From Nitrospirota bacterium (lineage in GTDB: Bacteria > Nitrospirota > Thermodesulfovibrionia > Thermodesulfovibrionales > Dissulfurispiraceae), in NCBI GenBank assembly GCA_023476565.1, contig JAMCVZ010000025.1, positions 1 to 52,276 on the forward strand: 52,276 bases of DNA. Direction: 5' to 3'. The notes beneath the pieces were generated by a model that saw only the letters and a program-made list of their open reading frames with translations, ran no database searches and was not told where the DNA came from. Both the position numbers and the translations under genes were made by a program. Shown piece by piece: positions 1,079-12,535 of the stretch (position 1 is its first letter; each line of letters opens with the position of its first letter).

Positions 1079-1411
1079 TCAGCCGGGAGAGACCGCATCA
1101 ATGGTGACGCTCGCGGTATAGACCTTTCCTGTCTTTTCGGTGACTTCCAGCAGCAGGTTGAATTTTCCGACGTCATAATAATGGGGCTTAGGAACCATCT
1201 CCTCACTCTCATTGCCGTCTCCGAAATACCACATGAACTTCAGCGGCTCCTTAAGGTTGTTCACCTTCGGCTCTATATGAACCCACATGGGGCCTTTTCC
1301 CGTTTTCGGGGCAGCGACAATTTCGATGCCGGCCGCCTTCTCCCCCGCATAACCGGCCGCTGCAACGACAAGCAGCGCGAAAACAAGAGCACTGCGGAGC
1401 TTAAAACTCAA
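1079..1411 (-). CDS. Small secreted PKD-domain protein
   Basis: A 110-residue protein made of a signal peptide (RSALVFALLVVAAAGYAG) and one PKD-like beta-sandwich with the motif WYFGDGNE followed by HYYDVGKFNLLLEV. The start is taken as TTG at 1411, because GGGAG lies just upstream and this gives a clean signal peptide; longer readings run into the body of the preceding gene. It overlaps the stop of the porin-like gene by 11 nt, suggesting translational coupling. PKD domains usually mediate protein-protein or carbohydrate contacts outside the cytoplasm. Together with the FecR-PKD protein downstream it gives the operon two PKD proteins, perhaps a structural accessory of the porin or the cytochromes. 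The function is inferred only. Confidence 0.7.
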   Translation of the reverse strand: MSFKLRSALVFALLVVAAAGYAGEKAAGIEIVAAPKTGKGPMWVHIEPKVNNLKEPLKFMWYFGDGNESEEMVPKPHYYDVGKFNLLLEVTEKTGKVYTASVTIDAVSPG

Positions 1412-3170
1412 ATTCCGCTCCCAGCACAAACTCTGATGCGGGGTCCGCCCTTTGTCCGTTCGCCTGCCGGTACACATCACCCGGGATAAAATATCCCATC
1501 TCCGTAAAGCCCCTCAAACGCTTGTAGATCGGGAAATCGAGATTCAGATCCAGCTCCCATCCGATATCCCTCGTCTTTTCGGTAGTCGTGGACGCACCCA
1601 CGCTCCAGTCCCTTACAGGGCCCCTTCCTTTATACACGCTTTCAGTTGTCCACAGTTTGGCCAGCGCCGCAGTCGTCTTCAGCATCCTTACGGGCTCGAA
1701 GCTCGTAATCGCCCTGATAAAGGTGACATTAGCAAGATTGCTGTCCGCCAGAAAATATCCGGCCCTTAAATCCTGGCTGAAGATATTCCCGAATTTCCTG
1801 CGGTCCTTGCAAAGGAACAGCCCGGTGAAATCTTTTGCGTCTCCTGTGCCGGATATCTTTTCTTCCGCGGTATTCCCGGACCCGCGGCCTAATTCAAGTC
1901 CGACAGAAGGATTTCTCAGCGGAACGAGCTTCTGGAGGCTGTAATCCCCCCTCAGCATGAGGGCATATGCCTTGTAGTCACGCTCTTTTGTATAAGAGCC
2001 CGTCAGATAGACGAAATCCCCGGTGTAAGAAAGCCTGCCGCTCTTGCCAGATAACGCTGTGCCTATCCACAGGGGTTCAAATCCCCCGTCCCGGGGTGTC
2101 GTGTTCGGATTGTAATCCTTATCGAGGTTGAGGTCGGGATTACCGAACCTGCCCCTGTCAACTACCTTGAATATGTACGGCGAAATAACAAGATCCCTGC
2201 CGGGCCTGATATCAAAGCTGAGCAGAAAGGCATCCAGCTTATTTGCAGCGCCGAGCAGCGAGCTGCTCCTGTTCCCCACTCCCGGCGGGTAGGTGATGCC
2301 GTTATAGTTTGCAAACCCGCCTGCGTTCGCGATATAGGCCAGGGACCCTGAGACCACGCCGATATTTGTCTTCCCGAAGGGATAGGTGATCTTCAAGGAG
2401 TCGACAGGGCCTTCAAGCACAATACCCCCGTTTCCGAGCATCATATTCTGCCTTCCCGCCTTGACCACAAAATTGCCGGTGTACTGGACGTAAAGCTCCC
2501 TGAGAAGGGTAGAGGTTACTGTGAAAAATTCTCCCCACCTCTCGAGTGTCCCCTGGCTGTCCTCCTTCCAGTCGAACACGAAATTGCCTTTATCAAAAAG
2601 GATCACCGAACTGAGCGGGCCGTACTGCGCATCGAGCTTCAGTTGAACCCTCTGGTCGAAAAACGCGGAATTGTCGAACTGCCAGAACTGCGAAGGGTTG
2701 TTGAGATTGAGGTTGTTCCTCGAGTTGAAGCGGACTTTATATTTCCCGGAGAAGTCGAGTTTCACCCTGTCGGATTCCTCTTCAGCCTCCTTCGCTGCCT
2801 TTGCCTCCAGCCTCCTCTTCCATGTCTCGACCTCCGTGAGCCTGCGTCGTGCTTCCTCGTCCCTGCCTTTCACGGATTCCGCTCCCGCAGCAGGCTCGCC
2901 CCACTCATCTCCTCCAGCCGTAGCAGGGGCAGGTTTCGGGGCGCTGACGGAAACCTCGGGTTTCTTCCCTTCCAAAAGAGTTTTAATAACCGACTCGAGG
3001 TCCGACACCCTCTTCTCAAGCTTCTGTATATAGTCCCGCGTGTCCTCCTGTCCCGACGGCAAAGAGGGCCTTTCCTTTCCGTCGCCGCCTGCCGCTTCTG
3101 TTTGGTCAAAGGGAGCAAAGAGAAAGATACCGAGCACAAGAGGGGCAAAAAATTTATGAATCATATTCAT
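1401..3170 (-). CDS. Outer-membrane porin-like beta-barrel with N-terminal coiled coil
   Basis: This 589-residue protein has a signal peptide (about 1-27), a short coiled coil (about 45-68, DYIQKLEKRVSDLESVIKTL), a Pro/Ala-rich linker, a second charged helix (about 105-140) and then about 440 residues of alternating aromatic/polar strands ending in EFEF. A terminal Phe after a strand is the usual outer-membrane barrel insertion signal, and the coiled coil resembles trimerising or peptidoglycan-anchoring segments of large porins. ATG 3170 is preceded by GGAGG. It lies between the dihaem cytochrome and the small PKD gene, so it may admit substrate or product for the periplasmic oxidoreductase, or form part of an electron conduit. 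No haem motif is present in it. The exact porin family is not recognised. Confidence 0.7.
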   Translation of the reverse strand: MNMIHKFFAPLVLGIFLFAPFDQTEAAGGDGKERPSLPSGQEDTRDYIQKLEKRVSDLESVIKTLLEGKKPEVSVSAPKPAPATAGGDEWGEPAAGAESVKGRDEEARRRLTEVETWKRRLEAKAAKEAEEESDRVKLDFSGKYKVRFNSRNNLNLNNPSQFWQFDNSAFFDQRVQLKLDAQYGPLSSVILFDKGNFVFDWKEDSQGTLERWGEFFTVTSTLLRELYVQYTGNFVVKAGRQNMMLGNGGIVLEGPVDSLKITYPFGKTNIGVVSGSLAYIANAGGFANYNGITYPPGVGNRSSSLLGAANKLDAFLLSFDIRPGRDLVISPYIFKVVDRGRFGNPDLNLDKDYNPNTTPRDGGFEPLWIGTALSGKSGRLSYTGDFVYLTGSYTKERDYKAYALMLRGDYSLQKLVPLRNPSVGLELGRGSGNTAEEKISGTGDAKDFTGLFLCKDRRKFGNIFSQDLRAGYFLADSNLANVTFIRAITSFEPVRMLKTTAALAKLWTTESVYKGRGPVRDWSVGASTTTEKTRDIGWELDLNLDFPIYKRLRGFTEMGYFIPGDVYRQANGQRADPASEFVLGAEFEF

Positions 3171-3190: not shown

Positions 3191-4150
3191 CTACTCATGC
3201 GTATGTTTATGCTTCCCGCTCTCTGCTCCGTAGAACATGGGGATCTCTTTTATCTTTCCATCCCTGCCCGTTATCTTATCGACCTTTCTATCGCTGCTAT
3301 GGCACTCTATACAGACGAGTCTTTTCAGCAACGGCTTGAAGGTGTAAGGGGCTTCGGGATGCACCGCGATAAGATAGGGGTTCATCTCGTCGGGGTTGCT
3401 TCTTTGTATATAGTTCTTCAGGGGCCCGTAGGGTTCGATCCTGGACCTCTTCATCTTATTTGCCATTGCAATGCACTCATCCATCGTCTTTCCGCCTGCA
3501 ACCGCCGCAGAGAAGCAATCCATTACGTCTCCTTCGCTGACCGCGGTTTGAGCGGGCTCTTTCGTATTTTCATTTGCCTCCTGCTTGTATGACTCATGGC
3601 ATGTAATACAGGTGATCTGCTTGAGCTCCGCGCCTTTCTTCTTTCGTGAAGTCTGGGGGAACAGGTCGTTGATTATGCCCCTGTTGAGCCATTTCAGGTC
3701 CTCAGGATTTTGGGTCTTTTTGTAATACGCTTCCCTTTCCTTTGTCTCACGGCTGAAATTTATGCTGCTCCTGGTCCGAGAGCCGACGGTTTCATCAGCA
3801 AGGAGCCTGTTTAGTTCGTCGACAACAGCAGTTTTGTCATCTTCGGTTAATGCCCCGGGCTTAATACCACCTAACAGCATGCGGGCTTCCGGGCCCAGCA
3901 GGGCCTGGAAAGGCGGGGCCTGAAGCCTGCCCTGGAGGGAGCGTACAAATTCCGGCCAGTTCCTGATTTCATTCGCAGAGAAGTCGGGAGTCCTCTGGCT
4001 CATGACCGACAGGTGCAGGGTATGAGGATGAGGATACTTTTTCCCCTGTGCTGATACGGCTTCCTCTGCCCGCGCTGAACTAAAGAGACCCAGCATTATC
4101 GCCAAAGCTAACGGAGCCGCTACTAAAGGCTTCAGTTGACCGCTTCGCAT
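3191..4150 (-). CDS. Periplasmic dihaem cytochrome c
   Basis: The 319-residue product has a signal peptide (LKPLVAAPLALAIMLGLFSS followed by ARA) and two c-type haem motifs, CITCH in the middle and CIECH near the C terminus; the end is His-rich (KHKHTHE). The ATG at 4150 is chosen because GGAGGGAGAG lies directly upstream; a longer reading would extend 20 codons into the chaperone gene. It overlaps the end of the TorD-like gene by 19 nt and precedes the porin-like gene by 20 nt. The long stretch between the signal peptide and the first haem is not recognised and may be a partner-binding domain. By context it would carry electrons in the periplasm between the molybdoenzyme complex and another redox partner. 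Confidence 0.8.
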   Translation of the reverse strand: MRSGQLKPLVAAPLALAIMLGLFSSARAEEAVSAQGKKYPHPHTLHLSVMSQRTPDFSANEIRNWPEFVRSLQGRLQAPPFQALLGPEARMLLGGIKPGALTEDDKTAVVDELNRLLADETVGSRTRSSINFSRETKEREAYYKKTQNPEDLKWLNRGIINDLFPQTSRKKKGAELKQITCITCHESYKQEANENTKEPAQTAVSEGDVMDCFSAAVAGGKTMDECIAMANKMKRSRIEPYGPLKNYIQRSNPDEMNPYLIAVHPEAPYTFKPLLKRLVCIECHSSDRKVDKITGRDGKIKEIPMFYGAESGKHKHTHE

Positions 4151-4824
4151 ATATTCTCTCCCTCCCTGCACACTTTTGCATAAAGTCCTGCAATGTATTC
4201 CTCTTCGCATCTCAGGAATTCCATAATGAAATGCGCAATGGCCTTATAAAATCCATATGTTGCGTGTCCGGTAATCTCTTCACAGCATTGATACGCCCAC
4301 TTTGAGAGATGCTCTTCCAGAAAGGTTTTCTGAAATTCAATGCACGTGCGCAGAGAGGACTGTTCGGCGTTTTCCCGCAGCTTTTTTTCCATCGCGCAGA
4401 GAAACCCCATAAACTCAAGCTCCATTCCTATATGATCGGGCATCTCGATGCAGTCATCGAGAACAGCCGCTCCTGCATTTTCATAAAACTGCCGGACGCC
4501 GACCGTTATCCTGCCGCCGAGCCGTTTCTCCCGGTCGAGATATACTGCCTCATGGGGGAGAACGCCGGACGGAAGAACAAACAGGGCGGCATGCTCGGCC
4601 TCCAGTTCATCTTTTATGTTCGTGATCCTTTCCGCCTGTTCGACGAATTCCGGCAGCCAGCGGAGGTCGGCCCTTCCTTCGCCGTTTTCCTGGAGCGCCG
4701 AAAGGATGCTCCTGTCCTTTATCATATCGACCAGTGAATCTGACGGGGGCTTGAGGCAGAGGTTTGCAAAAAATCTGTAGGTCCCCTCCCGGTCTCCCGC
4801 TGCGCTTATTTCACTTTCTCCCAC
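4132..4824 (-). CDS. TorD/DmsD-family molybdoenzyme chaperone
   Basis: A 230-residue all-helical protein of the TorD/NarJ-like family: it has the EAEHAALFVLPSGVLPHEAVYLD block and the signature PDHIGMELEFMGFL with conserved acidic and aromatic residues. Such chaperones bind the Tat signal of a molybdoenzyme, hold it until cofactor is inserted and then release it for export. GTG 4824 is preferred because AGGAGG (4831-4836) lies 6 nt upstream; the first ATG at 4839 has no ribosome site, and that AGGAGG would fall inside its own coding sequence. It slightly overlaps the dihaem gene. The partner is almost certainly the 980-residue molybdopterin subunit of the same operon, whose RR Tat signal it would recognise. 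Its presence argues that the catalytic subunit really carries Mo/W cofactor. Confidence 0.88.
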   Translation of the reverse strand: MGESEISAAGDREGTYRFFANLCLKPPSDSLVDMIKDRSILSALQENGEGRADLRWLPEFVEQAERITNIKDELEAEHAALFVLPSGVLPHEAVYLDREKRLGGRITVGVRQFYENAGAAVLDDCIEMPDHIGMELEFMGFLCAMEKKLRENAEQSSLRTCIEFQKTFLEEHLSKWAYQCCEEITGHATYGFYKAIAHFIMEFLRCEEEYIAGLYAKVCREGENICEAVN

Positions 4825-4835
4825 TGTTAACCTCC

Positions 4836-6050
4836 TCATTTCATGAACCCGTTTTGAATGAATGCCATCTGCTTCTTATGTCTGTCTATACAGAGGGGGC
4901 ATATACCGGGCGGCAGCCCCGGAGGGACGCCCTCGGAAGACTGACGGCTTCCCATAGACTGAACAAAATCCATGCGGCATAGGGAACATTGCTTTCTTTC
5001 GGCCTCAAAAACGCGAAGCTCCTTATCTTCAAGGAGATGGTTCAGCCTTGCCGTCTCTCCGGTACTTATCGCCTTTGGCATGCAGGTTTCAGCGCAAACC
5101 CGGCAGTTGGTGCATAACGAGGGCCTGAAGCTCAAACAGAACTGTTCCTCGCTCCACCCTTGAGTTAATGCCCCTGTCGGGCAAAGAGTCGCACAGACGC
5201 CGCACGCAGTACAGTGAGACGACACCGTGATCTCCGCGAGACTAACCTCCCCTGGCGGCACACATACCTCTTTCACGGGAGCAAATTCCCCAAGCGCCTG
5301 TATGAGGAGCATCCTTTTGGAATTACCGGGCCTTTTGCTGATAGCCTCTAAAAAACTCTGTTCCCTCGCATCCCCCCCGGCGCTTATTTCAGGGAGCGAG
5401 GTTGCTGCTACTGCTGCTGCTTTTGTCCTCAAGGCAGAAAAAAACTCCCGCCTCGACACCGCCTTCTCCGGCCTCTTTACCGGCGGTTGAAGCGGCATCC
5501 TCCGGATTGCGAGCCTTTCCCTTTCTATATTCACCATTTCATAGAGGGCAAATACGCGATTTAAAAGCTTGTCTATATGGAGTGAGGCTTTTGAATTAGG
5601 ACACTCTGCGCAATCCGGCCGTATTATATCTATCCCCGCAAAACCTGTCCTTACCGGCTCAACCAGGAGCGCCTCGGTAAGGCGGCCGAGACAGGGCACC
5701 AGGAGATCAGCCTTCCCGTCCCCCCGCTCACAGGAAATGCGAAGCACTTTTCCCTCTCCCCTGCTGTTTCTTCCTGCAGCCTCTCTTATCTCTCCGATAA
5801 TTCTCTCGTCATCCCGTTCCTTGACCTGGAAGACGCCGTTCGGGCAGACGGAAGAGCATATCCCGCACTCGATACAGGCGCCGGTAATCTCGGCGCCTCT
5901 GTCCGAGATGCTGATCGCGCCGGCAGGACATGTGTCGGCACACATCGAACAGCCTGATTTCGGGGTCCGGAAACGCGAGCATAAAGGCGCTTCGATGTGC
6001 AGGTTGTGACCGGTAATTATTTGATCTGTGACTTTTTCGGCAATTCCCAT
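4836..6050 (-). CDS. Multi-cluster [4Fe-4S] ferredoxin-type protein (404 aa)
   Basis: This cytoplasmic-looking protein (no signal peptide) has two pairs of cluster motifs. The N-terminal pair is at about residues 24-69 (C24, C34-x2-C37-x3-C41, then C59-x2-C62-x2-C65-x3-CP). The C-terminal pair is around 280-335 (CTACGVCATLCPTGA and CTNCRVCAETCMP). There are also a central CAECPNSK segment and a C-terminal CSLC...CPLC pair resembling a zinc ribbon or rubredoxin-like knuckle. ATG 6050 has AGAGG upstream. It sits between the small ferredoxin subunit and the TorD-like chaperone. It could pass electrons on the cytoplasmic side or help mature the molybdoenzyme; ferredoxins of this build are often found beside TorD-like genes, but I cannot name the family. 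The gene order supports co-function with the complex. Confidence 0.78.
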   Translation of the reverse strand: MGIAEKVTDQIITGHNLHIEAPLCSRFRTPKSGCSMCADTCPAGAISISDRGAEITGACIECGICSSVCPNGVFQVKERDDERIIGEIREAAGRNSRGEGKVLRISCERGDGKADLLVPCLGRLTEALLVEPVRTGFAGIDIIRPDCAECPNSKASLHIDKLLNRVFALYEMVNIERERLAIRRMPLQPPVKRPEKAVSRREFFSALRTKAAAVAATSLPEISAGGDAREQSFLEAISKRPGNSKRMLLIQALGEFAPVKEVCVPPGEVSLAEITVSSHCTACGVCATLCPTGALTQGWSEEQFCLSFRPSLCTNCRVCAETCMPKAISTGETARLNHLLEDKELRVFEAERKQCSLCRMDFVQSMGSRQSSEGVPPGLPPGICPLCIDRHKKQMAFIQNGFMK

Positions 6051-6134: not shown

Positions 6135-6761
6135 TTACTTCGTGTATATCACCGACGGGTCCGTGGTCGTCTTTCCACCGATAAACCCTACAGAGACCCT
6201 TTCGGCCCTCTTTTCCCTGATAAGCCTTGTAAGATCATTCACTTCACCGAAGAACCGCGTCCTCGCTATGCAGGTATCGACACAGGCGGGACGGAGCCCT
6301 TTTTCCAACCTATGCACACATAGAATGCATTTTTCCATCACTTTGGCCTCTGCATTGAACTGTGGATGACCGTAAGGGCATGCCCATGCGCAATACCTGC
6401 ACCCGATGCACTTATCCTTGTTGATAAGAACTATCCCGTCCTCTTTTCTCTTTGTGATTGCCCCGACCGGGCAAGCCGCCATACAGGCCGGCCTTCCTCA
6501 ATGCATACAGGGCATGGGAACAAAATAGACCCTCACCTCAGGCTTCTCCTTCGGGTCCTTGAATTCTCCCACTTCGATCTCGACCACGCGATTGTAATCA
6601 ACTCCTACAGGCGTATTGTTCTCCGCCTTGCACGCCATAGTGCATGCACTGCACCCGACGCAATATTCAAGGTCTACCCACAGGGTATATTGCTTTGGTC
6701 CTTTTTTCGCCATACTTGCCTGCAGTGTTTCATCTGATATGAATGCTCCTCTTTCCGGCAT
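6135..6761 (-). CDS. DmsB/NrfC-type [4Fe-4S] subunit with in-frame TGA at a cluster cysteine
   Basis: Read through one TGA (6498-6500), this is a 208-residue electron-transfer subunit with four standard cluster motifs: C34/C37/C40/C44; C85-M-H-[TGA88]-x4-C93-x3-C97-P; C118/C121/C124/C128; and C145/C148/C160/C164. The frame is unbroken on both sides. The TGA falls exactly where the family has the second Cys of CxxC; the other ferredoxin subunit of this operon has CQQC at the same place. If TGA were a stop, only an 87-residue one-cluster fragment would be made. Options are a selenocysteine codon, a fresh nonsense mutation (one base from TGC or TGT) or an assembly error. ATG 6761 has AAGGAG 6 nt upstream. 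The protein should bind the catalytic subunit encoded just before it and carry electrons to or from its N-terminal cluster. Confidence 0.8.
6458..6474 (-). other. Hairpin 23 nt after the in-frame TGA (weak SECIS candidate)
   Basis: On the minus strand the bases fold as TTGCCC-GGTCG-GGGCAA, a perfect 6-bp stem with a five-base loop that begins with G. The loop starts 29 nt after the TGA, which is compatible with bacterial SECIS geometry as I remember it (loop roughly 16-37 nt away, G near the loop start). Caution is needed: the stem is made by the codons for the conserved CPVGA motif. A similar hairpin (TGCCC-GACAG-GGGCA, 5169-5183) occurs at a CPTGA motif in the neighbouring ferredoxin gene, where there is no TGA. 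The structure alone therefore proves little. Confidence 0.3.
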
Positions 6762-6782: not shown

Positions 6783-9725
6783 TTATAATCTTTCAAGCCT
6801 GATAGGGGTCCCGTTGCTCTGGGTTCCTCCGCCCACAGGATCAATCATGATGACATTCTTAAGCACCGGATCAGTCATATAGAGCGGATTTATGTGGAAC
6901 CCCGCGCCTACTCTTTCGTCGTGAGGCTGCTCCTTGCCGTTCGCATACCATTTCCTTGCGCCTGCGCCGAACCTGGCATATGACTGGCATATTGAAAACA
7001 GGCCGGGCCGTATCCTGCTTGTCACCCTTACCTGGAACTTGTACCAGCCGTCGCCCATCGAGTTGTGGTAGAGGTGAATATGCCTGCTGGACGGCGATTT
7101 CGCCTTCACCCAGTCCCCGGTCTTCACCCCCAGTCTCCCGGCGTCCAGAGGGTTGATCTCAGCATAGTTCTGAGGTTTGATGGAAGCAAGCCACAGGTTG
7201 TTCATCGTCCTCGACTGCGTATGGAACGCGTCCTTCCATGTATGGAGCTGGAACGGATACTCCTTCCATATCGCCGGATCAAGCGGCTGCTCTTTGCAGT
7301 CTATTATGGTCCTGTACTGGGGAAGCCCGTCAAAATATTTTCCCGTCATGCTGTTCTTGTTTAATGCGGTTGACTGCTGGTAGACATAGAGCGCGCGTAC
7401 CGGCCTTCCTCCTGGGAAGGTAACATAATCACCCGAGGAGTACGCATTTGTGTATTGTTTTGAAGGCGCAGGATTTTCGAATTTGCCGCCGAGCTTTACA
7501 AAACTGCTCTTGGGATCCAGGCCCTCCTTGAAGTCATAGTGCTTGTAATACTCGTTCCAGTAATCCCAGGAATTGTTGATATTGATACCGGGGCCGCCGC
7601 CGTCCTTGCCGAAGCCCGGGAGGCCGCACTCCTTTGCAATATCGATAAGCATGTCGTCCGCCATCTTCGTGTCCGGGCGGATGGCCCTGTAATTGTGGCT
7701 TTTCGGATCGAATGAGCCCACAACAGGCTGTCTCAGCGCCCATACCCTCGTTTTCACCGGAGGGTACGTTTTGAAGCCGCCGAGGCGCTCGAGGTATTCC
7801 GTGTCGGGCAGTACATAATCGCACAATGCGCTCGTCTCTCCCATATAAGCGTCTATGGAGAAGGTGAGGGGCATGGCCTTCAGATCCAGCAGCGCATCGA
7901 TAACCGTAGCGTTGTGCGGCATGGTAAAGACAGGGTTATTGTAATAATTCAGATATGCCTTTATCTTGTAGGGGTACCCCATCCTCACCGAGCCGAAGAA
8001 TTCCGGGGTTACGGTCCTCCTTGCAAGTGGATACCACGGCCTTGTCGCGGTAGCGTTCTTTCCCTGGTACTTCGACTTGTGGCGGCATACGGAGACGCCG
8101 CCGGCTTTGCGCAAATTACCCTTCACATCGCCCTTGTATGCTGCATGGCCCGGGGTGAACCCGCCCTTTCTGTCCACATTATCGACAAGGATGTTGACAA
8201 TGCAGAGGGCCTGGCCGTTCCAGTATCCGTTGGTCTGCTGGACAGGGCCGCGGAACATCTCTATCACGGGGTGTTTCGCGGAAGAGAACTCCTTTGCGAT
8301 GCGGGCGATGGTTCCTGAGGGGATATCGCAGACCGCCTCACCTTCGCCGAGCGTCACTTCCTGCGCCCTTTCCTTCAGCATCCTGAAGACGGTCTTATAC
8401 TCGGCGCCGTTTATTACAACAGCGGCATCGAGGTCGGCAGACCCGTCCACCTCCTGGAACATCTTCGGCTTGCCGTTTACCAGGACAACAAAATCACTCT
8501 GCCCCAGTCCTGCCTCTTTGCCGGCAAGATAGGTTTTCGGCTCCTTAGTACTGACAAGATACGTCATATCAGTCCAGTTGCGGTACCCTTTTTTCTTGGC
8601 TGCACGCTCGTTCGGCAGCGAGAGGTATTCTTTTTTATAGCCGTTGTTTTCGATGATCCACCTGATCATCCCGAGGAGGAAATACGCGTCTGTCGTGGGT
8701 TTTATGGGGACCCATTCCCCGGCCCCGCTATGGGTGGCTTTGGCGGCGCCGTTTGAAAAGCGCGGGTCAACCACGACGTGCTTGAATTCCCTGGCATACG
8801 GGCCAACCCTCTTGCCGAATTTCTGGAGATAACGCGCCCTGGTCTGCATGGGATAGTCAGCCTGTGTGATATTCGAACCCAGGCTGATCAGGTAATCGCA
8901 ATATTCGTAGTCGCAATAAGCGCCGATTTCATAGGGGGGCAGGTTCAGCACGTCCTCTACCACGTTGTAGAACGTTCCTGCGCACCGGCTGCAATGATTG
9001 AGCATATTCGGCACTCCTATAGACTCGTTGACGAATCTCGGAGTCAGCGGCGACTGCTCGTTGCGGCCGTGCGCCCATACGAACTGGTTTCTCTTCGGTC
9101 CGTAGCCGCCGGGAGGCGCCTCGTCCAGATAGTCGGAGTCTTCTTTCCCTATCGGGTCGTTGTTGTTCACAATGGATTTCAGTCCTTCGACTTTGCGGTT
9201 CTCTTCGCCGGGGAGATTCTTGAAGAGATAGCCTCCGTGGCAGATCTCCTTTATAGCCTGTTCCCACGAGATGGTCTTCCACTTCCCGGATCCCCTCGGC
9301 CCCACACGTTTCAAGGGGTGCTGGAGCCTGAAGGGGCTGTAAAGCGCATAGACACCCGCCTGTCCCTTGGGACACAGGGACCCTACATCCTTTCCTGCCG
9401 GGCCTGCGTCAAGGTCGGATTCTTCGACGATATCACCCTTTGCGGTGTAATCGTAGGTGTTCGGATGATAGGGGTTGCCGGTAAGCCTCGCCAGCTCTCC
9501 GTTCACCACCTTTGCCTGGATCCCGCATCCGCCGTGACACATGAGGCATACGCTTCTGACTATCTTTACCTCTTCATCCACAGGGTCGGGCTGGGAGCCC
9601 GACTTGCCGATCTGCTTTTTCCACTCCGCGGCCTCGGCGTCCTTGAAATTCGATACGACAGCAGCGGCTGCGACGGCAGCGGCGGAAATTTTCAGAAATG
9701 TCCTTCTCTTGATTTCAGTATTCAC
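6783..9725 (-). CDS. Molybdopterin oxidoreductase catalytic subunit (CISM family), Tat-exported
   Basis: This 980-residue protein starts with a Tat signal (RRTFLK at 7-12, then an Ala-rich core). An N-terminal [4Fe-4S] site follows (C60-x2-C63-x3-C67 ... C118-P-K-G), then the molybdopterin domains and the C-terminal MGD-binding barrel. The likely metal-ligand region is H244-C-S-R-C248, which lines up with the HxSxC of thiosulfate/polysulfide reductase-type enzymes, making Cys248 the probable Mo/W ligand. The extra Cys245 is unusual. GTG 9725 has GGAGGG 6 nt upstream. It overlaps the NrfD-type gene by 11 nt. The length fits tetrathionate, polysulfide or arsenate reductase-like enzymes, but no substrate-specific signature is recognised. 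With the NrfD subunit it would exchange electrons with quinone on the periplasmic face. Confidence 0.88.
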   Translation of the reverse strand: MNTEIKRRTFLKISAAAVAAAAVVSNFKDAEAAEWKKQIGKSGSQPDPVDEEVKIVRSVCLMCHGGCGIQAKVVNGELARLTGNPYHPNTYDYTAKGDIVEESDLDAGPAGKDVGSLCPKGQAGVYALYSPFRLQHPLKRVGPRGSGKWKTISWEQAIKEICHGGYLFKNLPGEENRKVEGLKSIVNNNDPIGKEDSDYLDEAPPGGYGPKRNQFVWAHGRNEQSPLTPRFVNESIGVPNMLNHCSRCAGTFYNVVEDVLNLPPYEIGAYCDYEYCDYLISLGSNITQADYPMQTRARYLQKFGKRVGPYAREFKHVVVDPRFSNGAAKATHSGAGEWVPIKPTTDAYFLLGMIRWIIENNGYKKEYLSLPNERAAKKKGYRNWTDMTYLVSTKEPKTYLAGKEAGLGQSDFVVLVNGKPKMFQEVDGSADLDAAVVINGAEYKTVFRMLKERAQEVTLGEGEAVCDIPSGTIARIAKEFSSAKHPVIEMFRGPVQQTNGYWNGQALCIVNILVDNVDRKGGFTPGHAAYKGDVKGNLRKAGGVSVCRHKSKYQGKNATATRPWYPLARRTVTPEFFGSVRMGYPYKIKAYLNYYNNPVFTMPHNATVIDALLDLKAMPLTFSIDAYMGETSALCDYVLPDTEYLERLGGFKTYPPVKTRVWALRQPVVGSFDPKSHNYRAIRPDTKMADDMLIDIAKECGLPGFGKDGGGPGININNSWDYWNEYYKHYDFKEGLDPKSSFVKLGGKFENPAPSKQYTNAYSSGDYVTFPGGRPVRALYVYQQSTALNKNSMTGKYFDGLPQYRTIIDCKEQPLDPAIWKEYPFQLHTWKDAFHTQSRTMNNLWLASIKPQNYAEINPLDAGRLGVKTGDWVKAKSPSSRHIHLYHNSMGDGWYKFQVRVTSRIRPGLFSICQSYARFGAGARKWYANGKEQPHDERVGAGFHINPLYMTDPVLKNVIMIDPVGGGTQSNGTPIRLERL

Positions 9726-10986
9726 TCTTTTCCCTCCTATGCTTATTTATCATTGCAGGGTCTATTGCCGCATCTTCCCCACCTTTAAATCTCAATTCCC
9801 CGGTATAAACCGGGATGGCAAACTTCAGCAATAGGGTATAAAGCAGGGCGCCAAATGCCCAAATCCCTATAGTAATAATGAACTCCGGCCTGACAGGCCA
9901 GTATTCATAAATTTCTCCGAGGGTATCAGGGACAAAGCCGGGAATAACCAGCCCCATACCTTTTTCTATATACACTCCTAAAACTATCAATACAGCGCCG
10001 ATATTCAGGGTTATAAAGTTCTCTCTTATCTTCGGTATCAGGAAAATAACAAAAGCTGTGACATTGAATACCAGGGCCGTCCACATCCATGGGACAAGAC
10101 GCATCTTGCCATGCAGGCCAAGATAGAGATATTCCAGCGGGGCCTTGTGAATGCTCCCGGAATAAAACTCTTTAAATACCTCCGCGCCCAACAGGAAGAG
10201 GTTTATACCCATGGCATACGCTACCAACTCTGCGATCTTGAAAAGCGCCCTGTCCTCTATCTCGATCTTTGTGAGCTTCCTGATTATCTGGAAGAGAATC
10301 AACATAATGGCCGGACCTGAGCAGAAGGCAGACGCAAGGAACCTCGGCGCAAGGATCGATGCGTTCCAGAAAGGTCTCGATGGGAATCCATTATAGAGAA
10401 ACGCCGTAACTGTATGTATGCTTACTGCCCAGGGGATCGAGAGCAATATCAAAGGCAGGATCAACGATAATTTATACTCCTTTCCGATGGAAAGCCTGTA
10501 TAAAGCATAAAGGACAAGTAAAAGGTTAATGAAAAGATATCCGCTGAGGACTATCACATCCCACGCCAGAAGGGAGGAGGGGAAATTCATCAGACCGACA
10601 ACAGGCAGGAGATGCCACACCCTCAGCGGCTGCCCCAGATCGACCATGATAAAAAGTATGCACATGGTGATTGCGGCTATAGCCACCATCTCTCCAAAGA
10701 GCACTATCTCCTTAATGGGCTTGAAATTATACAGATATGCCGGAACCACCAGAAGGACAGCGGCAGCCGCCACACCCACCAGGAAGGTGAAATTGGAGAT
10801 GTAAACCCCCCACGAAACCTGGTCTCTCATGGCGGTTATTATAAGACCATCGTCAAGTTGCCGTGCATATGCGCTGATTCCGAGGGCGATTAAGACGAAA
10901 AGGAAGGCAATCCATATATAATACTTTATGTCGCCCCTGGTTATCTGCCAGAGTGACTTGAAGAAATTCTTGATAATGTTACCCAT
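9715..10986 (-). CDS. NrfD/PsrC-family polytopic quinone-interacting membrane subunit
   Basis: A 423-residue membrane protein with about nine to ten hydrophobic helices. It belongs to the NrfD/PsrC/DsrP/HmcC family, which anchors periplasmic Fe-S subunits and reduces or oxidises quinones without haem. Recognisable blocks are VSWGVYISNFTFLVGVAA, LGQPLRVWHLL and FWNASILAPRFLASAFCSGP, which resemble the DsrP/ActC/QrcD branch. ATG 10986 lies 11 nt after the stop of the Tat-exported Fe-S gene, behind a G-rich stretch; its end overlaps the catalytic gene by 11 nt. With the Fe-S subunit and cytochrome upstream it makes a classic cytochrome/Fe-S/NrfD module, here joined to a true molybdoenzyme. Confidence 0.9.
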   Translation of the reverse strand: MGNIIKNFFKSLWQITRGDIKYYIWIAFLFVLIALGISAYARQLDDGLIITAMRDQVSWGVYISNFTFLVGVAAAAVLLVVPAYLYNFKPIKEIVLFGEMVAIAAITMCILFIMVDLGQPLRVWHLLPVVGLMNFPSSLLAWDVIVLSGYLFINLLLVLYALYRLSIGKEYKLSLILPLILLSIPWAVSIHTVTAFLYNGFPSRPFWNASILAPRFLASAFCSGPAIMLILFQIIRKLTKIEIEDRALFKIAELVAYAMGINLFLLGAEVFKEFYSGSIHKAPLEYLYLGLHGKMRLVPWMWTALVFNVTAFVIFLIPKIRENFITLNIGAVLIVLGVYIEKGMGLVIPGFVPDTLGEIYEYWPVRPEFIITIGIWAFGALLYTLLLKFAIPVYTGELRFKGGEDAAIDPAMINKHRREKSEY

Positions 10987-10997
10987 CAGTCCCCCCC

Positions 10998-11939
10998 TTA
11001 ATCTGCCTGTGTTATATTAGTTGCAAAGAAGTAATAAAATTTCGGATTTGTATTCATATCCTCTTTGAGCCTAAAGACCCTTTTGTTCTCAATAAGGTAC
11101 CTGATCTCACTTTTAGGGTCCAAGAGATTCCCGAACTTTCTGGCGCCCACAGGGCAGACCTCTACACACGCGGGGTATTTGCCGGCCCTTGTCCTCTGGA
11201 TGCAGAAGGTGCATTTCTCGACCACTCCTTTATAGCGGGGACGGTTCCCGAGATAATGGGTCTCCGGGTTTATCTCATCCGCCGGGATATTCGGTTTTGC
11301 CCAGTTGAACCGCCGTGCGCCGTAAGGACACGCCGCCATACAGTATCTGCAGCCGATACACCAGTTGTAATCAATTACCACGATCCCGTCGGGCTCTTTC
11401 CATGTCGCCTGTGTCGGACAGGCCTTTACGCAAGGGGGATTCTCGCATTGCTGGCACTGGACAGGCATGTAAAAGAAATCCTTCTCGGGAACCTGCTTTG
11501 GGCTGTAATATTTTTCGGAATTTTCAAGGTCAATCCACTTTTCGCCTTTCTTGAAACGGAGGACGGTAATCCAGTGGACTTGAGGGGTCCGTGATTGGTT
11601 GTTCTCATCCACACAGGCATAGACACATCTCCTGCAGCCGATGCAGCGGGACAGGTCGAGCCCGTAACCGAACTTGACCCCGGGCATTGCCTTCGCTGTA
11701 CCGATATGGATGTTCTTTTTCCATTCAACAGCAGCCTCTTTTTCGAGCCGCCCGATAACCTTTTTAATTTCCGCATCGTTCATCTCTCTGAAATGTTTCT
11801 GCAAAAAAGAATCCCAGTTGAATGCACCGGCAGCGGCAGGCCGAACAACCGTTGCAGCGAGGCCGGCTGCTGCGCCCTTTAGGAATGTCCTTCTATTGAG
11901 TTCGATTCCCAACGGATTACTGCGTATTTTCTTTGACAT
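10998..11939 (-). CDS. Tat-exported 4x[4Fe-4S] electron-transfer subunit (DsrO/HmcB/QrcC-like)
   Basis: The 313-residue protein has a Tat signal (NRRTFLKGAAAGLAATVV, residues 15-32) and four cluster motifs in order: C99-x2-C-x2-C-x3-C (CIGCRRCVYAC), CQQCENPPCVKACP, CIGCRYCMAACPYG and CTFC...CVEVCPVGARKFG. It would sit on the periplasmic side and connect the NrfD-type subunit with the cytochrome and/or the molybdoenzyme. ATG 11939 lies 6 nt after the cytochrome stop, with AGAGG upstream. Its second motif (CQQC) is the internal reference for the TGA-containing motif of the smaller ferredoxin subunit. Two different ferredoxin subunits of this fold in one operon suggest two electron routes around the catalytic subunit. 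Confidence 0.9.
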   Translation of the reverse strand: MSKKIRSNPLGIELNRRTFLKGAAAGLAATVVRPAAAGAFNWDSFLQKHFREMNDAEIKKVIGRLEKEAAVEWKKNIHIGTAKAMPGVKFGYGLDLSRCIGCRRCVYACVDENNQSRTPQVHWITVLRFKKGEKWIDLENSEKYYSPKQVPEKDFFYMPVQCQQCENPPCVKACPTQATWKEPDGIVVIDYNWCIGCRYCMAACPYGARRFNWAKPNIPADEINPETHYLGNRPRYKGVVEKCTFCIQRTRAGKYPACVEVCPVGARKFGNLLDPKSEIRYLIENKRVFRLKEDMNTNPKFYYFFATNITQAD

Positions 11940-11945
11940 AGCTGA

Positions 11946-12485
11946 TTAACCTCTATCCAATTTAATTTCTTGCGGTTTCATCGGGCGCTGCTTGGGTTCA
12001 AGCGGTTTAAACCGCGGCTGATGCGGATCGTGACAACTCACACAGAGCCGGTAAAGCTTTTCCCCGTTCCACATCCCCGTCCGCTTGCCGTGGATTCCCG
12101 CTTTCCAATCCCTGAAAACCGTCCCGTGGCACTGGCCGCAGAGGTAGTATGACTTCTCAAACCCTACCAGTTGCCCGTTTTGCAGCCGCAGCTTGTCGCC
12201 GTCATGGCAGTCATAACACCACTGCTGTTCTCCGGCATGTTTAAAAACGATATCGGTATGATAGAGAACGAGCTTTCTTTTACTCTTGTCTGCCGGCTTA
12301 TAATTGTGGCACTTCGAACAGGGAAAGTTTTCCGAAGCAGGAGCTTTTGGAATGAAGAATTTCGGGATGCCGTCTTTTTGCTCTTCTTTTGTTTTTCCTT
12401 TCATATCTGCACCGGATAGAAGAGGCAGAATAAAAAATAATCCTGTTATCGCCAGTGTAAAGATAAATGCATTTCCTCTATTCAT
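11946..12485 (-). CDS. Tetrahaem cytochrome c, first gene of the respiratory operon
   Basis: A 179-residue secreted cytochrome with an N-terminal hydrophobic signal (FIFTLAITGLFFILPLLSG) and four CxxCH motifs: CSKCH, CYDCH, CGQCH and CVSCH. The His residues after the first motifs (LYHTDIVFKHAG, GIHGK) could serve as distal ligands. ATG 12485 is chosen over an upstream in-frame ATG at 12506 because GGGGAGG lies 10 nt before it. It is the promoter-proximal gene: the sigma-54 element lies about 40-50 nt upstream. Gene order (cytochrome, Tat Fe-S, NrfD) matches complexes such as Dsr, Hmc or Qrc, in which such a cytochrome links periplasmic redox carriers to the quinone module. Confidence 0.88.
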   Translation of the reverse strand: MNRGNAFIFTLAITGLFFILPLLSGADMKGKTKEEQKDGIPKFFIPKAPASENFPCSKCHNYKPADKSKRKLVLYHTDIVFKHAGEQQWCYDCHDGDKLRLQNGQLVGFEKSYYLCGQCHGTVFRDWKAGIHGKRTGMWNGEKLYRLCVSCHDPHQPRFKPLEPKQRPMKPQEIKLDRG

Positions 12486-12535
12486 TGTTCTACAACCTCC
12501 CCACAAGGGAATTAATCAGTAATCTTTTAAAGGAC

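Follow-up and report, generated by a model that had tools for sequence, protein, structure and literature searches.

The locus studied here raises the question of whether an in-frame TGA in the gene of an iron-sulfur subunit terminates translation or encodes selenocysteine (Sec). The gene lies on the minus strand at positions 6135-6761 of the window, the 52,276-nucleotide stretch of Nitrospirota DNA that was analysed. The TGA (6498-6500) coincides with the codon of a predicted cluster ligand, and a sequence-only reading of the locus had proposed that it is recoded.

The interrupted B subunit and its operon

The gene runs through 208 codons in one frame, and the TGA at codon 88 is its sole interruption (...FVPMPCMH-TGA-GRPACMAACPVGAI...). 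Read through, it encodes a 208-residue protein with the stretch ...PCMH-U-GRPACMAACPVG..., in which Sec88 would be the second residue of the cluster motif C85-x2-U88-x4-C93-x3-C97-P. The protein matches Pfam family Fer4_11 (E 1e-29) and is a four-cluster [4Fe-4S] protein of the DmsB/NrfC/PsrB kind. Its 16 cluster-ligand positions are arranged in four groups and are all present, one of them as Sec. They are invariant among 28 aligned homologues, and position 88 is always Cys or Sec. The sequence-only reading is thus borne out in describing a frame intact on both sides of the TGA, a complete four-cluster subunit, and a TGA at the second Cys of a [4Fe-4S] motif. It was also right that a paralogue in the operon has CQQC at this place. 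Standard ORF calling recovers a 115-codon 3' part of the gene only, and any annotation that takes TGA as a stop splits it.

The operon extends along the minus strand on both sides of the gene. The catalytic subunit (6783-9725) is a 980-residue, Tat-exported molybdopterin protein resembling TtrA and PhsA. It is followed in the direction of increasing coordinates by an NrfD/DsrP-like membrane quinone subunit (9715-10986), the all-Cys paralogue, which is a DsrO-like second four-cluster Fe-S protein with a Tat signal (10998-11939), and a multihaem cytochrome c (11946-12506). On the other side are a polyferredoxin with an FlpD-like domain (4836-6050), a TorD/NarJ-type molybdoenzyme chaperone (4132-4839), a protein without a Pfam match (3191-4210), and an outer-membrane barrel of the Alginate_exp type (1401-3170); the polyferredoxin, the protein without a Pfam match and the barrel are conserved in the operon. 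The whole gene set, together with a FecR/PKD protein, is held together in Nitrospirota, Desulfobacterota and Rokubacteria. In Sedimenticola, Rhodoferax and others, the genes for catalytic subunit, B subunit, polyferredoxin and chaperone persist as a core, in most cases accompanied by the barrel.

With 16 ligand positions and operon genes for a catalytic molybdenum subunit, an NrfD-type subunit and a TorD-type chaperone, the interrupted gene encodes the B subunit of a complex iron-sulfur molybdoenzyme. It scores below the cut-offs of the NCBIfam models for DmsB (DMSO_dmsB, 181.3 bits against a curated 214.1), TtrB (148.5 against 416) and the FDH3 beta subunit (NF038355, 106.7 against 240). The catalytic subunit reaches 374 bits with the TtrA model, for which the cut-off is 1750, and is called TtrA-like rather than TtrA; with the PhsA model it reaches 212 bits, far under the cut-off. 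Known members of the clade nearest to the catalytic subunit reduce tetrathionate, selenate or arsenate (PMC10100899). A literature search on the substrate of the enzyme returned nothing that names this operon, and a search of a plasmid collection gave no match.

Selenocysteine machinery

Examination of selA, selB, selC and selD, which had been proposed as a check of recoding, gave a mixed result for this genome: selA and selD are present, selB is present with a frameshift, and selC was not found in the draft. The selB gene consists of two overlapping frames broken at a run of ten C (L012:11034-11050, G000:C47). The tRNA-Sec was not found in the 96%-complete, 73-contig draft, and the tRNA-Sec of a congener used as a query had no match there. 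Matches to the Rfam tRNA-Sec model were identified by ARAGORN as tRNA-Ser and other tRNAs. No tRNA-Sec was found even though selD and three fdhA bring the further Sec genes of the draft to four or more.

A tRNA-Sec is present in all seven TGA-bearing Nitrospirota relatives, and SelB in seven of eight TGA-bearing genomes tested; it was not seen in G177, a small incomplete genome. In several relatives the tRNA-Sec lies near contig ends, and its neighbour genes vary from relative to relative. The Desulfobacterales genome has no clear tRNA-Sec, its best match being weak and placed at a contig end.

The broken selB and the missing selC in the draft would fit a genome in which Sec is ancestral and its insertion has been lost, so that the UGA now terminates, with the operon decaying or the subunit working in truncated form. 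We consider such a loss very improbable, if slightly less so than the other alternatives discussed below. SelA is intact, SelD is itself encoded with a Sec codon, and three Sec-type FdhA genes keep a TGA at the Mo-ligand motif within long open frames. Both halves of selB are otherwise intact, and relatives carry the whole gene. The B-subunit frame is also conserved, with Ka of 0.04 and Ks of 1.3 against the nearest TGA-bearing relative. Because several Sec genes of the same genome remain intact, we infer that the selB frameshift is probably a homopolymer error (or slippage) and that the missing tRNA-Sec is probably an assembly gap.

Conservation of the TGA codon and of a downstream hairpin

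The TGA occupies exactly codon 88 in nine distinct species, with protein identities of 83-91%. Eight are Nitrospirota: this genome, L061 (= G007), L065 (= G027), L067 (= G141/G177), L068 (= G022), L069 (= G057), L070 (= G013) and L098 (= G178). The ninth, L072 (= G176), belongs to Desulfobacterales GWB2_56_26. Among Nitrospirota orthologues with 84-91% identity, most have one in-frame TGA. The remaining orthologues have TGC or TGT at codon 88; the tree includes 20 such sequences with Cys. Between eight TGA copies, the median Ka/Ks is 0.04 upstream of the TGA and 0.05 downstream. The low downstream value indicates that the part past the TGA is translated and selected.

The sequence-only reading had left room for a recent TGC/TGT-to-TGA mutation or a base error, in which case the TGA of an ordinary Cys gene would be spurious, or the gene would be a pseudogene of recent origin. 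The source is a draft metagenome assembly, as apparently are all TGA-bearing genomes, and the selB frameshift shows that errors or decay do occur. However, the same TGA recurs in nine independently assembled species, followed by sequence under strong purifying selection, and the TGA and Cys relatives compared have no other gene disruptions of the kind that decay brings. This conservation excludes the mutation or error for practical purposes. The alignment of homologues, which had been suggested as a check, thus decided in favour of recoding.

A SECIS-like hairpin, UUGCCC-GGUCG-GGGCAA, follows the TGA on the minus strand (6458-6474, apical loop 6464-6468). The loop is located 29 nt after the UGA, the stem has 5-6 bp, and the folding energy is -9.3 to -10.0 kcal/mol. 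In the bacterial SECIS model, a loop of 3-9 nt with G in its first two positions, 16-37 nt from the UGA, caps a stem of 4-16 bp, with an MFE of at most -7.5 kcal/mol (PMC13188914). The B-subunit hairpin, with its 5-nt loop starting in GGU, agrees with this model in loop, stem, spacing and energy.

Synonymous codon identity, that is, the fraction of shared amino acids that are written with the same codon, is 0.83 over codons 91-103 of the TGA copies, compared with 0.52 in the rest of the gene. The corresponding values for the Cys copies are 0.55 and 0.53, and the freezing of synonymous sites after codon 88 is thus seen in TGA copies only. Among 196 windows of 13 codons, none is more frozen than the hairpin stretch, which reaches 0.855; outside it the highest value is 0.66. 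Nearly all TGA copies share one hairpin sequence, so that it shows no compensatory covariation. Another hairpin, upstream of it at +12 nt, was rejected as a SECIS element, since it forms in Cys copies too. In this genome, the UGA of one FdhA gene is followed by the sequence GGCC-GGUCU-GGCC.

In three Cys copies the hairpin is retained in full or for the most part: L060 (8001-8624), L063 (2420-3043) and L064 (3428-4051). A retained hairpin is expected of Sec-to-Cys reversion, and the three are apparently reverted selenoproteins. On a tree built from both subunits with column 88 removed, the distribution of Sec and Cys at this column needs five changes, at least three of which are forced by well-supported branches. 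Sec has thus been gained or lost repeatedly in the B subunit, and the relic hairpins favour losses.

The frozen sites also bear on a fission of the gene, in which translation would stop at the UGA and restart at the ATG at 6480-6482 to give two small Fe-S proteins. This ATG lies 15 nt past the TGA and is followed by the 115-codon ORF. Fission would nevertheless divide the cluster motif over two chains with the loss of one ligand, close relatives have uninterrupted Cys versions, and the synonymous sites are frozen past the ATG in the SECIS-like hairpin; we give the scheme hardly any credence. An altered genetic code, in which UGA would be an ordinary amino acid throughout the organism, is just as implausible: nothing was found in its favour, and 13 of the 30 long ORFs of the window end in TGA.

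In all probability, then, the B-subunit UGA is read as Sec and the gene encodes a selenoprotein. The recoding at a metal ligand put forward by the sequence-only reading is supported by the TGA of nine species, the SECIS-like hairpin and the Sec machinery.

Proposed selenium in the electron path and comparison with known systems

The B-subunit residues 85, 88, 93 and 128 align without gaps to NarH residues 184, 187, 192 and 227, the ligands of cluster FS3 in the NarGHI structure. Aligned to NarH Cys187, Sec88 should ligate the third of the four clusters, the equivalent of FS3. That Sec88 ligates a [4Fe-4S] cluster at all is very likely. The AlphaFold model of the B subunit has a mean pLDDT of 50, too poor for cluster assignment.

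We propose that SelB carrying Sec-tRNA binds the hairpin past the UGA and that Sec is inserted at residue 88. Sec88 would replace the second Cys of the group II motif and ligate a [4Fe-4S] cluster with C85, C93 and C128. This FS3-like cluster would be one of four that relay electrons between the periplasmic TtrA-like molybdenum subunit and the membrane module of NrfD, Fe-S protein and cytochrome c. The selenium of Sec88 probably adjusts the potential of the cluster or guards it from oxidation, and it would be optional, since several switches between Sec and Cys have taken place among the lineages. The analysis shows the frame, its conservation, the selection on it, the SECIS-like constraint and the machinery, and from these we infer the presence of Sec in the mature protein, the Fe-Se ligation and the redox effect.

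A second Sec codon occurs in the catalytic subunit. In this genome its residue 245 is Cys (TGC at 8991-8993, minus strand, motif NHCSRC), and six relatives (L065, L068, L070, L072, L094 and L098) have TGA at the same codon, in GVPHMLNH-U-SRCAGTF. The 13 codons past the catalytic TGA are 97% identical at shared residues, compared with 46% in relic-free Cys copies, and this stretch is the most frozen of 986 windows in the gene. It contains a SECIS-like hairpin, CUUCUACA-GUGU-UGUAGAGG, with its loop 25 nt after the UGA. The Cys copies L063, L064 and L067 keep the catalytic-gene hairpin, whole or mostly. In an alignment with ArrA, the Mo-ligating Cys corresponds to residue 248 of the catalytic subunit. 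In ArrA, Mo is ligated by Cys193, a number that presumably corresponds to chain position 153. The catalytic Sec lies three residues before this probable Mo ligand and would form a UxxC motif with it. Both Sec residues occur together in five species, that of the B subunit alone in at least three (this genome, L061 and L067), and that of the catalytic subunit alone in one (L094).

We likely have here a family of respiratory molybdoenzymes with selenium at two places of the electron path, the Sec-ligated cluster of the B subunit and a catalytic Sec that several lineages have in addition, each switching between Sec and Cys separately and leaving SECIS relics. Two Sec genes in one operon suggest a class of selenium-dependent respiratory enzymes that is missed by annotation with TGA as a stop.

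This genome has another molybdoenzyme catalytic gene with a single in-frame TGA (L170:370-2628, minus strand; G000:C47, around 72606-73559). Its product is DmsA/YnfE-like (321 bits, cut-off 778), and the TGA is found in GSF-U-LLSGLSGATATFG. The gene continues for more than 560 codons past the TGA and adjoins an Fe-S B subunit, which makes it one more candidate for Sec in a protein other than a formate dehydrogenase.

The presence of Sec in a protein is generally accounted for by a role in catalysis. In the B subunit it would have been kept across genera at a ligand of a pure electron-transfer cluster, in a protein that clearly functions with Cys too. The natural Sec and Cys orthologues would allow the effect of selenium on the potential, rate and oxygen damage of a [4Fe-4S] cluster to be tested.

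The proposed mode of insertion resembles that of Escherichia coli fdhF, with a small hairpin just past the UGA, an apical GGUC and SelB-dependent insertion. The spacing between UGA and loop differs, being 29 nt in the B-subunit gene and about 18 nt in fdhF. The B subunit shares with DmsB, TtrB, PsrB and NarH the fold family, the 16 Cys positions in four groups, and the partner molybdenum subunit, NrfD-type subunit and TorD chaperone. It differs from them in scoring under the DmsB and TtrB cut-offs and in its Sec, as none is listed for these proteins in a catalogue published in 2026 that covers 119 families of prokaryotic selenoproteins (PMC13188914).

The same catalogue includes no molybdoenzyme B subunit, and the molybdoenzymes of this superfamily that it holds are formate and formylmethanofuran dehydrogenases only (PMC13188914). 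Its Fe-S selenoproteins include an 'Fe-S cluster domain-containing protein' with UxxC (NF005503/PRK07118), HgcB and ferredoxin-thioredoxin reductase (PMC13188914). These resemble the B subunit in having Sec predicted at or near a cluster, but belong to other families, and none is a molybdoenzyme B subunit (PMC13188914). The best PRK07118-type model matched gives the B subunit 35 bits, with a cut-off of 388.

The closest precedent is the FDH3 beta subunit (COG0437/HybA) of Desulfosediminicola ganghwensis, predicted by deep-Sep to contain Sec (PMC12013277). It resembles the B subunit in belonging to the same multi-cluster electron-transfer superfamily, in having Sec predicted in place of Cys, and in a SECIS-like hairpin. 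It differs in being of the formate dehydrogenase subfamily and in coming from a single genome without TGA homologues elsewhere (PMC12013277). The earlier view that a Sec-ligated cluster would be new in this family was therefore nearly right, the exception being this one orphan prediction in a distant COG0437 subfamily. Within the open-access literature searched, the B subunit is a new selenoprotein family that combines a known insertion mechanism with an unusual place for Sec.
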